DNA of 64,000 bases from Holophagae bacterium. Lineage in GTDB: Bacteria > Acidobacteriota > Holophagae > Acanthopleuribacterales > Acanthopleuribacteraceae. The position numbers and the translations under genes are program-made. Every line of letters starts with the position of its first letter. Position 1 is the stretch's first letter. The DNA lies in contig JAJCXM010000022.1 in NCBI GenBank assembly GCA_029263455.1, forward strand, positions 310,001 through 374,000, read 5' to 3'. This document shows positions 13,394-17,474 of the stretch, in pieces. The notes under the pieces are model-generated. The model searched no databases. It was not told where the DNA came from and saw only the letters and a list, made by a program, of their open reading frames with translations.

Positions 13394-13858
13394 TTAGATT
13401 TGTGCGTTCGGGTTCGCGTGATGTTTGACCATATGTGCGCCAACCCATTTCGAAACCGTCTCGTCCGGAATGGTCGCCATGATCATGTCGAGCTTTTGGC
13501 GTTTGCCTTTGCGTTCGATAACCAGGGGAACATGGTCGCCGACCTTGATGGACTTCATGGTGGTAGCTAATTGGTCGCCAGTCATGCCAGCCAAGTCCTT
13601 GCCGTTCATGGATATCAAGAGATCGCCTACTTTGGCACCTGCGAGTTCGCCCGGGCTACCTGGCGTTATATCAAAAATTGAAACCAAGCCCGATTCATCA
13701 CCGATTCCGTCCACCTGAATTCCATCCCATGCGGTATTGATGAGATAGGTCGTCATCTTATCCAAACAGGCTTGTGTTTCGCTCGCACATTTATGCCCAT
13801 CATTGGCAAAAAGCGAAGCACTGACGGCCCAAACGGAAATAAGCACAATGTTCTTCAT
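13394..13858 (-). CDS. Small exported PDZ-domain protein (copy 1 of a tandem pair)
   Basis: 154 aa from the ATG at 13858, which is preceded by AGGAGG with four bases of spacing; the longer frame to 13960 lacks such a site. Signal peptide: KNIVLISVWAVSASLFA. Mature part: a Cys pair (CASETQAC), then a TAWDGIQVDGIGD segment and a PDZ domain (IFDITPGSPGELAGAKVGDLLISMNGKDLAG ... MKSIKVGDHVPLVIERKGK). It ends in WVGAHMVKHHANP. No protease domain is present, so it is a stand-alone periplasmic PDZ protein of unknown partner. It shares this whole plan with the next gene upstream (13985-14470) and is clearly its paralogue. A terminator follows at about 13.34 kb. Confidence 0.75.
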   Translation of the reverse strand: MKNIVLISVWAVSASLFANDGHKCASETQACLDKMTTYLINTAWDGIQVDGIGDESGLVSIFDITPGSPGELAGAKVGDLLISMNGKDLAGMTGDQLATTMKSIKVGDHVPLVIERKGKRQKLDMIMATIPDETVSKWVGAHMVKHHANPNAQI

Positions 13859-13984
13859 GACGCCTCCTAGTTCCAGATCGCGAAAGGACACGAAGGAATT
13901 AGATCCTAATCTACAGGTTGCAGATGCAAACGTCTTGACCGACAAGAAAAAAGGCGACAAATGTTGTTAACATCTGTAAAAAAA

Positions 13985-14470
13985 TTAGAGGCCGACGTCG
14001 CTCTTCTTGTAGTGGTGCTGAATAAAGTGGTTGCCAACCCATAATGCAACTAGATCTGTTGGGGGTGACGCCATCTTGACTTGTTTGTGAAACGTACGGT
14101 CACCACGTTGCACTGTGTAGGTAACGACCGTGCCCACTTTTAGTGATTTCATGGCCTGAATGAGGTCCTGATTTGTCCAAGTCTGCATGGGCACACCATT
14201 GAGTTCGACCAGGATATCGTCTACTTTGAAACCTTCAGCAATGCACGGACTTCCAGGCTCAATTTCGACGACACGTACAGGGTCTGAACTGCTTACACCA
14301 TCAACGCGTAAACCGTCCCAAGCGGTCTCCATGTAAGAGCTTACGATCGTTTGTAAACACTGATCAACGGGACGAGGACACTTCTTGTAATGTCTGTATG
14401 ATTCCTGCCCGAATCCCAAACAACATGTCGCAATTATTAGACTTGCCTTTGTAAGTGGGGTAAAAGCCAT
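13985..14470 (-). CDS. Small exported PDZ-domain protein (copy 2 of a tandem pair)
   Basis: 161 aa from the ATG at 14470, preceded by AGGGGA with a spacing of about six; an in-frame ATG at 14500 lacks a site. The signal peptide is AFTPLTKASLIIATCCLGFG. The layout matches the neighbouring paralogue: a Cys pair (CPRPVDQC), ETAWDGLRVDGVSS, a PDZ domain (VEIEPGSPCIAEGFKVDDILVELNG ... AMKSLKVGTVVTYTVQRGD) and the ending LWVGNHFIQHHYKK. An extra Cys lies in the PGSPC loop. The two genes are 126 bp apart and may be co-transcribed. The role is unknown; the pair lies upstream of a kinase with a periplasmic sensor. Confidence 0.72.
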   Translation of the reverse strand: MAFTPLTKASLIIATCCLGFGQESYRHYKKCPRPVDQCLQTIVSSYMETAWDGLRVDGVSSSDPVRVVEIEPGSPCIAEGFKVDDILVELNGVPMQTWTNQDLIQAMKSLKVGTVVTYTVQRGDRTFHKQVKMASPPTDLVALWVGNHFIQHHYKKSDVGL

Positions 14471-14551
14471 GGTTAGTCCCCTGTTCCCTCGCCCAGACAT
14501 TATACTTGAAGCAAGACGGATTGGGCTGTGATTTTAGTTAAGGAGTGAAAA

Positions 14552-15175
14552 ATGAACCAAATTTTTTGGTATTTCGACTTCATTTCACCATTTGCATATC
14601 TACAGTTCCAGGAACTTCATCGCCTATGTGATCCACATCAGATAAATTTACGCCCAATCCTACTGGCAGGCCTTTTGGGGCATTGGGGGCAAAAAGGTCC
14701 TGCGGAAATAGCAAGTAAACGTCTCTTCACTTATCGCCACGTCTTATGGCTTGCGAAGCGAAAAGGGCTAGAGATGCGTCTTCCAGAAGGCCACCCGTTC
14801 AATCCTCTCTTCGGGTTGCGATTAGCTACCGCCTGCGAGTGTCGCTATGACGTTGTGGCAGCGATCTTTGATCATATATGGCGTGCTGGAAAGACATTCC
14901 AAGACGTAGACGAGAATGCAGATTTGGCGGAACGACTAGGCGTGAATATCGCCAAGGTCAACGCGGCATCCGTCAAACATGAGCTCCGTAATAGCGGAGA
15001 ACGGGCTTTAGAAATGGGCGTATTTGGTGTGCCTACTCTGATCATCGAAAACCGACTTTTTTGGGGCTTGGATGCAACCCAGATGGCAGCAGATTTTCTA
15101 GCAGGCGATCGCGAGGGCCAGGATGAAGTGTTCAAATCAGTCGAAAAATTGCCGGTTTTTGCGAGACGAAAATAG
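14552..15175 (+). CDS. DsbA-like 2-hydroxychromene-2-carboxylate isomerase family protein
   Basis: 207 aa. The ATG at 14552 follows AAGGAG. The N-terminus IFWYFDFISPFAYLQFQEL is the signature of the kappa-class GST/2-hydroxychromene-2-carboxylate isomerase branch of the DsbA thioredoxin fold, where the S-P-F/Y-A/S-Y motif replaces CxxC and binds glutathione. FGVPTLIIENRLFWGLD near residue 165 contains the cis-Pro loop (GVPT) typical of the fold. HCCA isomerases act in naphthalene and related aromatic degradation, but many family members have other, unknown substrates and no aromatic-degradation genes are nearby. It is divergent from the PDZ genes and likely monocistronic. A T-run follows at 15191-15199. 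Confidence 0.82.
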   Translation: MNQIFWYFDFISPFAYLQFQELHRLCDPHQINLRPILLAGLLGHWGQKGPAEIASKRLFTYRHVLWLAKRKGLEMRLPEGHPFNPLFGLRLATACECRYDVVAAIFDHIWRAGKTFQDVDENADLAERLGVNIAKVNAASVKHELRNSGERALEMGVFGVPTLIIENRLFWGLDATQMAADFLAGDREGQDEVFKSVEKLPVFARRK

Positions 15176-15234
15176 TTAGCTTAAAGCTTTAGTTTTTTTC
15201 TCAAAACCCGATATGAGAGTCATGGAGGGATAAC

Positions 15235-16737
15235 GTGAGAACCGTTGATAGCGCAGACGAAGTAGCCTTAATTCAACAACGTGTTCTTGATGACGCCGAC
15301 TATCTCGTTATCTACATGGACTGGGTCGTCACAAGCAACCATTCGTTTCTCGTGGCACTTGGCGTTGATAGTGAAGGCAACCGCCGAATTGTGGGTGTGT
15401 GTTATGGAAATGCTCGTTCTGTCAAAACTGTTCAGACGCTCTTAGACGACCTCGTTCACCGCAAGCTGAAAATAGATCGAAGGCGGCTTTACGTGGTGGC
15501 TAGTTCGATGATCCTACGAAATTCCGTACTTGGTATGTTCGGAGATGCTGCATTGATTCAACGGTGTCGCACGCACTGTCTTAATAATGTCACCGGCCCA
15601 TTGTCCGATGACTTAGGCGCGTCAATCAAAAAGCGTCTGAAGTCGGCCTTTTCGGCGCCTTGGCAGCGGGCTCGGGCAGAAATTGAGATTATGGCTACGG
15701 ACATCCGAGATGAAAACCCAATCGTGGCCGCCAACCTGCTTGAGAGCCTCAACGAAGACCTCACCATCAATCGTTTTGACTTGCCTCCAGCGCTCACCCG
15801 CGAACTTGCAACCACTCGATTTCTGTTATCCCCAGAAAAAGGCTTTAAGCATCGCCTTAAGGTGCTTAATCGGCTAAAAATAGAAACAGAAGCCACAGCC
15901 TGTTTTGCAGATCTACTGATTGAAGTCGAAGAAAAATTCAGTCGCATACCTGGCTTTCGCGATCTTTGGATTCTGGATACAGCCCTTAAACAAGAAAATA
16001 TCGACGAGTCTTACGGTGAAGATATTTCGGAACCGATGACCAAAGTCGCTAGCTTCAGCCGTGCACAGCATCGGCGACATAAACGCTGGAATGTCCACCA
16101 TGTTGAGGGGCAAATCCAATGTACGATCCGCGCAAATGTCATGGATATTAGCCTTAATGGTGTTGCCGTTGAGACACGCTCGCCCCTGGCGGTGGGCAGG
16201 TCATATACCTTCAATTTGGCTAATGCCGACAAGAAGGTGGACCTTATCGGCAGAGTTGCTTGGTGTAAGTTAAATAGAACCGAAAGAGTTTCTGCCGATG
16301 AAATAGCGGCCATCTACCGTGCTGGCATCGAATTCGATGGCACACTTTCGTCAGCGGGCGACAATCTGTTAAGTTTTCTGGAGAACAGCGTGGAGATCTT
16401 GCTGGATCGGCGCATTTTTGGTCGCTTCAAAGTCGTGGACGGTGAGCGACCCATCCAACTCAATTCCGCATTTCCGTTTGTGGTTAAGAAAATATCTGCT
16501 TCTGGAATGCTTATCGAAACCGAATTTCAACCAGAACTTCAGACGATATTGCCAATAGAAGTTAAATTGGGCACAAAGACGTTCGAAGCGAGCGGGAAAG
16601 TTATCCACACTCATGAAAAGCCAAACAGTGATCTTTTTGAGTTGGGAATCGAGTTCATCGAATGTGAGAAAGAGAGTAATCTGATTCTTGAGTCGTTTAT
16701 CTCAAATGAACTCGATTCCGTGGCTATATCAGATTAG
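15235..16737 (+). CDS. Inactivated IS256/Mutator-type transposase core fused to two PilZ domains
   Basis: 500 aa from GTG with GGAGGG at 15224-15229. Residues about 20-200 follow the IS256 (Mutator) transposase catalytic core: IYMD29, VALGVDSEGNRRIVGVCYGNA, LLDDLVHRKL, DRRRLYVV, the QRCRTH (109-114) C-x2-H motif followed by NNV, ESLNEDLTINRF and LATT. The usual second Asp (L-F-V-x-D-G) is Ala89, and the catalytic Glu of TTNPIES is replaced (TTRFLLS, Leu198), so two of three DDE residues are lost. The transposase N-terminal DNA-binding part is absent. Residues about 278-380 form PilZ domain 1 with RxxxR (280-284) and DxSxxG (304-309), so c-di-GMP binding is plausible. Residues about 390-485 form PilZ domain 2 with RxxxR (393-397) but Lys419 where Asp is expected. 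The frame is intact over 1.5 kb, arguing for a domesticated gene rather than decay. No terminal inverted repeats were seen. Confidence 0.8.
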   Translation: MRTVDSADEVALIQQRVLDDADYLVIYMDWVVTSNHSFLVALGVDSEGNRRIVGVCYGNARSVKTVQTLLDDLVHRKLKIDRRRLYVVASSMILRNSVLGMFGDAALIQRCRTHCLNNVTGPLSDDLGASIKKRLKSAFSAPWQRARAEIEIMATDIRDENPIVAANLLESLNEDLTINRFDLPPALTRELATTRFLLSPEKGFKHRLKVLNRLKIETEATACFADLLIEVEEKFSRIPGFRDLWILDTALKQENIDESYGEDISEPMTKVASFSRAQHRRHKRWNVHHVEGQIQCTIRANVMDISLNGVAVETRSPLAVGRSYTFNLANADKKVDLIGRVAWCKLNRTERVSADEIAAIYRAGIEFDGTLSSAGDNLLSFLENSVEILLDRRIFGRFKVVDGERPIQLNSAFPFVVKKISASGMLIETEFQPELQTILPIEVKLGTKTFEASGKVIHTHEKPNSDLFELGIEFIECEKESNLILESFISNELDSVAISD

Positions 16738-17474
16738 TCGTCTAAGCTGAAATCCGAAGACGAGCCCATTGATTTATGATTGACTAAACTGCCATCGACG
16801 AATTTTATCTGGCTAGGTAAGCCAGTAGATTCATTCACTTTCGTCGTGAAGTAGCCCATCTTTACGCCTTTGTCAGTGCGCAGATTCCAAGTTTCCACGC
16901 TTTTGCCACCTTGTTCGCTCTTCTGAAACGAAACAGGACGGCCAGTGACGCAATAAGCCTGTTTCTTGCTCATGCCATTAACCAAGCGGCGTTCAGCGAT
17001 GGCGTCCTTGATATCCCTAGACCAATCGTCGTGTTCGTCTTGAAGCGGAACGCGAGAAAAGGCGAGTTCAAGGCCCTTCTTGAAGTCATCAATGTTATGG
17101 ATGTCTACCAGCATAATAACGGTCTGAATATCGTCGTCATCTATACTTTCCAGCTCAATCTCAATGCCGTCATCTTCGATATCGAACTCTTCAACCCTTA
17201 ATCCCTCATTAACGGACACACCCCAATAGGTACTGTCGGCGTGATACCAACTCGCCGAAATGACATTTTCGGCCTCGGTATTGACGCCCTCGGGTGAAAC
17301 TTCAACCAATGGTCGTTTGTAAGTGCCATAAGCATGCCGTCCGGTCGCGCACGGCATATCGATACGCGCGTAAAATGTGCCGTCTAATAGTTTCTTAACT
17401 TCCTTTTTATCTGATCGTCCGAGTCCAGCAAAAGCTGGTGTAATCAAAAGTATCAGTGTGATAAGTCGCAACAT
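16734..17474 (-). CDS. Exported protein of unknown function with a SmpA/OmlA-like C-terminal segment
   Basis: 246 aa. Signal peptide LRLITLILLITPAFAG. The middle is strongly acidic (FDIEDDGIEIELESIDDDDIQT), and the C-terminal part IAERRLVNGMSKKQAYCVTGRPVSFQ resembles the helix-turn region of SmpA/OmlA (BamE-like) proteins, in which a GMS/T-xx-x-V..GxP motif is common. I do not recognise the family as a whole. Two cysteines (C42 and one in YCVTG) could pair. Its stop overlaps the stop of the convergent PilZ fusion gene by four bases. It lies just downstream of the RND pump operon's end but on the same strand with its own signal peptide; any link is speculative. Confidence 0.6.
   Translation of the reverse strand: MLRLITLILLITPAFAGLGRSDKKEVKKLLDGTFYARIDMPCATGRHAYGTYKRPLVEVSPEGVNTEAENVISASWYHADSTYWGVSVNEGLRVEEFDIEDDGIEIELESIDDDDIQTVIMLVDIHNIDDFKKGLELAFSRVPLQDEHDDWSRDIKDAIAERRLVNGMSKKQAYCVTGRPVSFQKSEQGGKSVETWNLRTDKGVKMGYFTTKVNESTGLPSQIKFVDGSLVNHKSMGSSSDFSLDD

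Follow-up and report, generated by a model that had tools for sequence, protein, structure and literature searches.

PilZ effectors (PF07238), such as YcgR, Alg44, and MrkH, couple a PilZ domain bearing the RxxxR and DxSxxG motifs to a second domain that serves as output. In eukaryotes, the exaptation of dead transposases is amply documented, and FHY3/FAR1 of plants derive from a Mutator-superfamily transposase domesticated for signaling. To our knowledge, the cases of transposase exaptation in bacteria mostly keep a nucleic-acid-directed function. TldR proteins are guided by RNA and bind DNA. These bacterial and phage regulators derive from TnpB and are nuclease-dead (PMC13418256). In ISCth4, an IS256 transposase, residues 1 to 56 dimerize, 56 to 108 bind subterminal DNA, 108 to 165 form a helix-turn-helix (HTH), and 165 to 407 hold the catalytic and insertion domains (PMC7780238).

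The gene described here lies in a 64,000-nucleotide stretch of a Holophagae bacterium genome (hereafter, the window). Its product shares with the IS256 family transposases of the Mutator superfamily (ISCth4 TnpA, PDB 6xg8/6xgw/6xgx; IS931 and plasmid relatives) the RNase-H fold, the helical insertion, the order of strands and helices, and the first catalytic Asp. Unlike them, it has no N-terminal dimerization, DNA-binding, or HTH domains, has lost the second Asp and the Glu, lacks inverted repeats, carries two PilZ domains, and is encoded by a single-copy chromosomal gene. With standalone acidobacterial tandem-PilZ proteins it has in common the pair of PilZ domains and their order, a complete PilZ1 motif and, as in most of them, a missing PilZ2 Asp/Asn; those proteins start at PilZ1, whereas the fusion adds the transposase core. 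Like PilZ effectors in general, it combines RxxxR and DxSxxG with a further domain, but that partner is a dead DDE transposase core. TldR is comparable as a mobile-element protein that has lost its catalytic activity and been recruited to a cellular role, but it is RNA-guided and DNA-binding, belongs to a different protein family, and has no second-messenger domain. FHY3/FAR1 is also a domesticated Mutator-superfamily transposase, but it is eukaryotic and has no c-di-GMP sensor. Exaptation of dead mobile-element proteins is already known as a type of event, and the IS256 core-PilZ architecture was not found described: the literature searched contained no paper on an IS256-PilZ or transposase-PilZ fusion, and no family in the domain libraries spans the whole architecture, in line with the original prediction that no described family is known to have this layout.

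Domain architecture and homology of the fusion protein

The open reading frame at 15235 to 16737 (+) is uninterrupted over 500 codons, and homologous fusions occur in a congener (L008) and in a second genus of the family (genome G003, locus L005). The gene, its upstream neighbor, and its domains are located as follows (window coordinates):

14552 to 15175, + strand: DsbA-like/HCCA isomerase-type gene, ending 59 nt before the fusion (Pfam PF01323, 2.5e-22; synteny)
15224 to 15229, + strand: Shine-Dalgarno-like GGAGGG, 5 nt ahead of the GTG (read directly in the sequence)
15235 to 16737, + strand: complete fusion gene including its stop codon, 500 aa, starting with GTG (open frame; full-length homologues L008 and L005)
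15283 to 15993, + strand: IS256-type catalytic plus insertion domains, residues 17 to 253, RNase-H fold (Pfam/NCBIfam, hhalign, AlphaFold, Foldseek)
15565 to 15777, + strand: helical insertion domain, about residues 111 to 181 (helices in the model; ISCth4 insertion domain 261 to 325, PMC7780238)
15994 to 16071, + strand: linker from transposase core to PilZ1, residues 254 to 279, poorly conserved (47% identity; low model confidence)
16072 to 16389, + strand: PilZ domain 1, R280xxxR284 and D304-x-S-x-x-G309 (Pfam PF07238; alignments)
16390 to 16719, + strand: PilZ domain 2, R393xxxR397, with Lys419 at the motif Asp/Asn position (Pfam PF07238; alignments)

An IS256/Mutator core had been predicted at about residues 20 to 200; the homology held, and its extent proved larger. 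Pfam PF00872 (Transposase_mut) matched residues 17 to 209 at 9.5e-13, above the gathering cut-off. NCBIfam NF033543 (IS256 transposase) matched at 1.7e-21 with 76.6 bits, below the equivalog cut-off of 150 bits, as expected of a partial and diverged member. When compared by hhalign with five plasmid IS256 transposases, residues 6 to 253 corresponded to positions 161 to 409 of 420 (E 4.7e-35, 32% identity), and the core was 30 to 36% identical to the nearest plasmid transposases over residues 7 to 253. Since the alignment reaches residue 253, the homology takes in all of the catalytic and insertion region, as far as the C-terminus of the transposase, and stops just before the linker.

The AlphaFold model of the core, built from a five-row alignment that excluded L005 and the other genome-search loci, had block-mean pLDDT values of 73 to 93 for most of residues 11 to 250, with a dip to 61 near 201 to 210. 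Its elements run in the order strands 25-32, 37-44, and 50-57, helix 63-75, strand 84-88, helix 92-105, and strand 106-110. As modeled, this order is that of the RNase-H fold, followed by a helical insertion (112 to 181) and C-terminal helices. Foldseek against the PDB bore out the predicted fold: every match with E<0.001 was to the ISCth4 transposase (five chains, the best at 1.4e-9), retroviral integrases came next at about 3e-3, and a PDB sequence search returned ISCth4 alone. A chance similarity to IS256 is ruled out by the Pfam, NCBIfam, hhalign, and Foldseek matches. Of the ISCth4 layout, the fusion retains the catalytic and insertion part only. The dimerization, DNA-binding, and HTH domains are absent, consistent with the predicted absence of the DNA-binding N-terminus, and the protein begins at about profile position 160 of 420. 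A tblastn search upstream of the fusion for a relic of the transposase N-terminus gave the core itself and chance-level matches only.

In the C-terminal half, Pfam PF07238 recognized two PilZ stretches (4.1e-15, 56.4 bits against a cut-off of 22.5). It is important to consider that the identity of this half comes from the HMM and the motifs; AlphaFold was unreliable here (pLDDT 34 for the pair, from two sequences), also in the full-length model. Both Pfam and the alignments agree with the motifs read originally, RxxxR and DxSxxG in PilZ1 and RxxxR without the Asp in PilZ2. The PilZ1 ligand motif is complete in the window and in L008. In L005, c-di-GMP binding by PilZ1 may be weaker because Gly replaces the motif Ser (DIGMTG).

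Standalone tandem-PilZ relatives of about 220 to 240 aa (L012-L022, L034, L037) occur in several other Acidobacteriota families, begin right at PilZ1, and have no transposase core. In one alignment, the PilZ pair of the window was 30 to 38% identical to L012-L022, 32% to L034, and 24% to L037, and the three-row A1 model recovered most of these relatives at E 1e-31 to 1e-55. The PilZ1 motif is complete in the standalone family, and the PilZ2 Asp/Asn is replaced (by Lys/Arg or other residues) in most members. By these sequence comparisons, the PilZ pair of the fusion belongs with this widespread acidobacterial family. No conserved neighbors were seen around the standalone relatives. The c-di-GMP apparatus of the host is large, with 22 GGDEF and 13 PilZ matches in the genome. 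Another unusual PilZ partner was observed in the same genome (L050:1462-3282, +; G000:C32 near 208,600), where a 1170-aa open frame encodes a pair of N-terminal PilZ domains and, after them, a Ser/Thr protein kinase domain.

Catalytic loss and changes around the former active site

Alignment with IS256 transposases placed the catalytic positions as follows:

15319 to 15321, + strand: Asp29, the first catalytic Asp, kept
15499 to 15501, + strand: Ala89 where the second catalytic Asp would be (L008 has Ala, L005 Asn, and every transposase row Asp)
15565 to 15579, + strand: C111-x2-H114-C115, the CxxH motif plus a fusion-only Cys (Lys in all 13 transposase rows)
15826 to 15828, + strand: Leu198 where the catalytic Glu would be (L008 has Leu, L005 Trp, and every transposase row Glu)

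Except for C115, these residues had been predicted for the window and were recovered by the alignment, but the CxxH motif does not extend to the most distant homologue: its His is present in two of the three fusions and is Arg in L005. The Hermes counterpart of this His touches the scissile phosphate (PMC7780238). Among the transposase rows, two or three are themselves incomplete or lack annotation; D, D, and E are present in each of the complete plasmid enzymes L040-L045. Catalytic loss affects the same two positions in all three fusions, though the replacing residues differ, and the TTN ahead of the Glu reads TTR, TTR, and TTS in the window, L008, and L005, respectively. Judging from the alignment, the fusion core cannot transpose, as the second Asp and the Glu are gone in every copy.

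The surroundings of the lost residues have changed as well. Ten residues are invariant in the three fusions and occur in none of the 13 transposase rows, including W30, which adjoins the retained Asp29, C115, N167, and S171. Across cores only 26% identical, the fold is kept together with D29, Q109-R110-C111, E170, E174, T177, and T194, with the new residues beside them. By sequence, the former active-site cleft appears to have been remodeled.

A live mobile element was considered and is ruled out by the catalytic loss, the lack of element-type inverted repeats (only short, chance-like ones flank the gene), and the presence of one copy in the 6.2-Mb draft genome. Truncated IS256-type transposases in which the TTN...E motif is present lie at the ends of contigs C9 and C23 (L002:1447-1821, −, and L003:1435-1773, −). 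They belong to another IS256 subgroup, and ordinary IS256 elements exist or existed in the host genome. Such fragments could favor a role in transposition control, in which the dead core would poison live IS256 transposases through mixed complexes under the control of c-di-GMP. However, they match the fusion core weakly (26 to 29% over about 110 to 130 residues), and the dimerization domain is missing from the fusion (PMC7780238); we regard this role as very improbable.

Distribution, single origin, and conservation of the fusion

The search for homologues with the same fusion and loss of DDE residues, proposed originally, returned two, both dead at the same two positions. The congener fusion (L004/L008, contig JAGQSC010000027.1, Acidobacteria bacterium HKST-UBA04) is full-length, 66% identical to that of the window, and has the same neighbors: the DsbA-like isomerase immediately upstream in the same orientation, a convergent hypothetical gene with a 4-nt 3' overlap, and then an RND pump. 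The G003 fusion (L005:1492-2964, −; 490 aa) is 32% identical overall and 26% in the core, and its neighbors differ (a RecN-like gene and a nitronate monooxygenase). A TAG lies just upstream of its start codon, and the 490-codon frame is intact.

The arrangement with the upstream DsbA-like gene is thus also found in the congener and is absent from G003; in the window, this gene and the fusion possibly form one transcript. GC and GC3 of the fusion gene are similar to those of its neighbors. The hypothetical protein overlapping the fusion 3' end by 4 nt (16734 to 17474, −; 246 aa, signal-peptide-like start) is conserved, adjoining the fusion in the congener too, and has no Pfam or NCBIfam match. 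Farther upstream, two adjacent paralogous genes for small secreted-looking PDZ-domain proteins (13394 to 13960 and 13985 to 14500, both −) are also conserved in the congener. Among the neighbors, none was found that is both conserved around the fusion and points to a process or a partner gene.

The fusion is absent from four other genomes of the family, two of which (G002 and G005) encode distant standalone tandem-PilZ proteins, and no copies beyond the three were found among 93 class genomes and 396 and 397 phylum genomes (overlapping sets). Beyond Acidobacteriota, the search covered plasmids and viral contigs, plus a single pattern scan across genome contigs. Among the 72,556 plasmids, 83 records matched, none covering 80% of the query, and no fusion was found; the viral contigs held no relative of the fusion.

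In the core tree, built without the two lost catalytic columns, the three fusions lie on one side of a branch (95/92), although this tree is weak alone and the placement of G003 is uncertain by itself because the very diverged L005 core has a long branch (2.6). The three also group together in the PilZ tree (95/91). Since the core and PilZ trees each unite them, the sequences point to one old fusion event behind all three copies. The truncation point and linker position common to the fusions agree with a single origin, as do the ten fusion-only invariant residues.

Between the window and L008, identity is 69% in the core, 68% in the PilZ pair, and 47% in the linker, and third positions match at 41% in the core and 34% in the PilZ pair. 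The YN00 dN/dS for the core was 0.14, a rough figure since synonymous change is near saturation. Mobility has been lost, an intact frame is kept across three genomes of two genera, and selection is purifying; consequently, the gene looks like a domesticated transposase whose two halves have remained intact for a long time. The original prediction had taken the core for a domesticated, catalytically dead one and the intact frame as a sign of selection, and the two homologues, dead at the same sites and retaining the fusion, sustain both claims. They also refute a functionless pseudogene, recent chance read-through, or assembly chimera. The host genome is a draft in 40 contigs with IS fragments at contig ends, but the same full-length fusion is present in two other genomes (66% and 32% identity), with the frame intact and the neighbors conserved in one, which leaves this explanation a negligible probability.

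Possible role of the core in a c-di-GMP effector

We propose that, in a single event, an ancestor of some members of this Acidobacteriota family joined IS256 catalytic and insertion domains to an acidobacterial tandem-PilZ protein, and that its descendants would then have inherited the product like any other chromosomal gene. The protein would be a cytoplasmic c-di-GMP effector. PilZ1, with its complete RxxxR and DxSxxG, would bind c-di-GMP, and PilZ2, without the Asp, would be a structural or dimer partner. Binding of c-di-GMP may reposition the RNase-H-fold core or alter how accessible it is, and the core, as the output module, would bind a protein partner, perhaps via the remodeled former active-site cleft. 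The candidate cleft residues are the retained D29, Q109-R110-C111, E170, E174, T177, and T194 and the new W30, C115, N167, and S171. A domesticated dead IS256 core serving as output module of a PilZ c-di-GMP effector is the best explanation overall, and we give it an even chance. The more specific proposal, that the disarmed and rebuilt DDE core is the output of a second-messenger receptor in which c-di-GMP at PilZ1 controls what the former cleft binds, is put forward tentatively, at slightly under an even chance.

The core had been predicted to act as a scaffold or nucleic-acid-binding part. By sequence, a scaffold or partner-binding part is the better reading, and the nucleic-acid-binding option was not supported. 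A c-di-GMP-gated nucleic-acid-binding regulator, whose dead core would hold DNA or RNA nonspecifically or at a new site by analogy with TldR repressors, would suit a fold that comes from a DNA-processing enzyme and keeps several former active-site residues, and the cores of the window and L008 are still mildly basic (net charge +2 and +3). Against it, the protein has no DNA-binding, HTH, or dimerization domain, and the basic segment after the catalytic Glu (residue 181 on) has a net charge of +1, +2, and −8 in the fusions versus +2 to +14 in other IS256 rows. With the N-terminal dimerization and specific DNA-binding domains lost, this segment largely neutralized, and the G003 core at net −13 and pI 4.9, DNA binding is unlikely as a conserved function of the core, and we consider such a regulator rather unlikely.

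The core could also be a passive stabilizer, aiding expression, solubility, or dimerization while the PilZ pair does the real work, as in the standalone relatives. These proteins evidently work without a core, and the core of G003 has diverged to 26% identity. However, the congeners conserve the core to the same degree as the PilZ pair, and certain residues never vary among the fusions, so that a purely passive core seems improbable to us. A partner- or ligand-binding role for the cleft is preferred since the fold and residues of the active-site region are conserved between cores that are only 26% identical.

The fusion adds to the PilZ proteins an architecture for which no description was found, and, if the proposal is true, a DDE core as second-messenger output would be a kind of transposase exaptation absent from the literature searched. 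The DDE core seems to have exchanged the DNA world for a place in a second-messenger effector. The state before the fusion, with live IS256 and standalone tandem-PilZ proteins, and the state after it, with three diverged fusions, are both clear, which makes this family a tractable case of how the folds of selfish elements become signaling modules.
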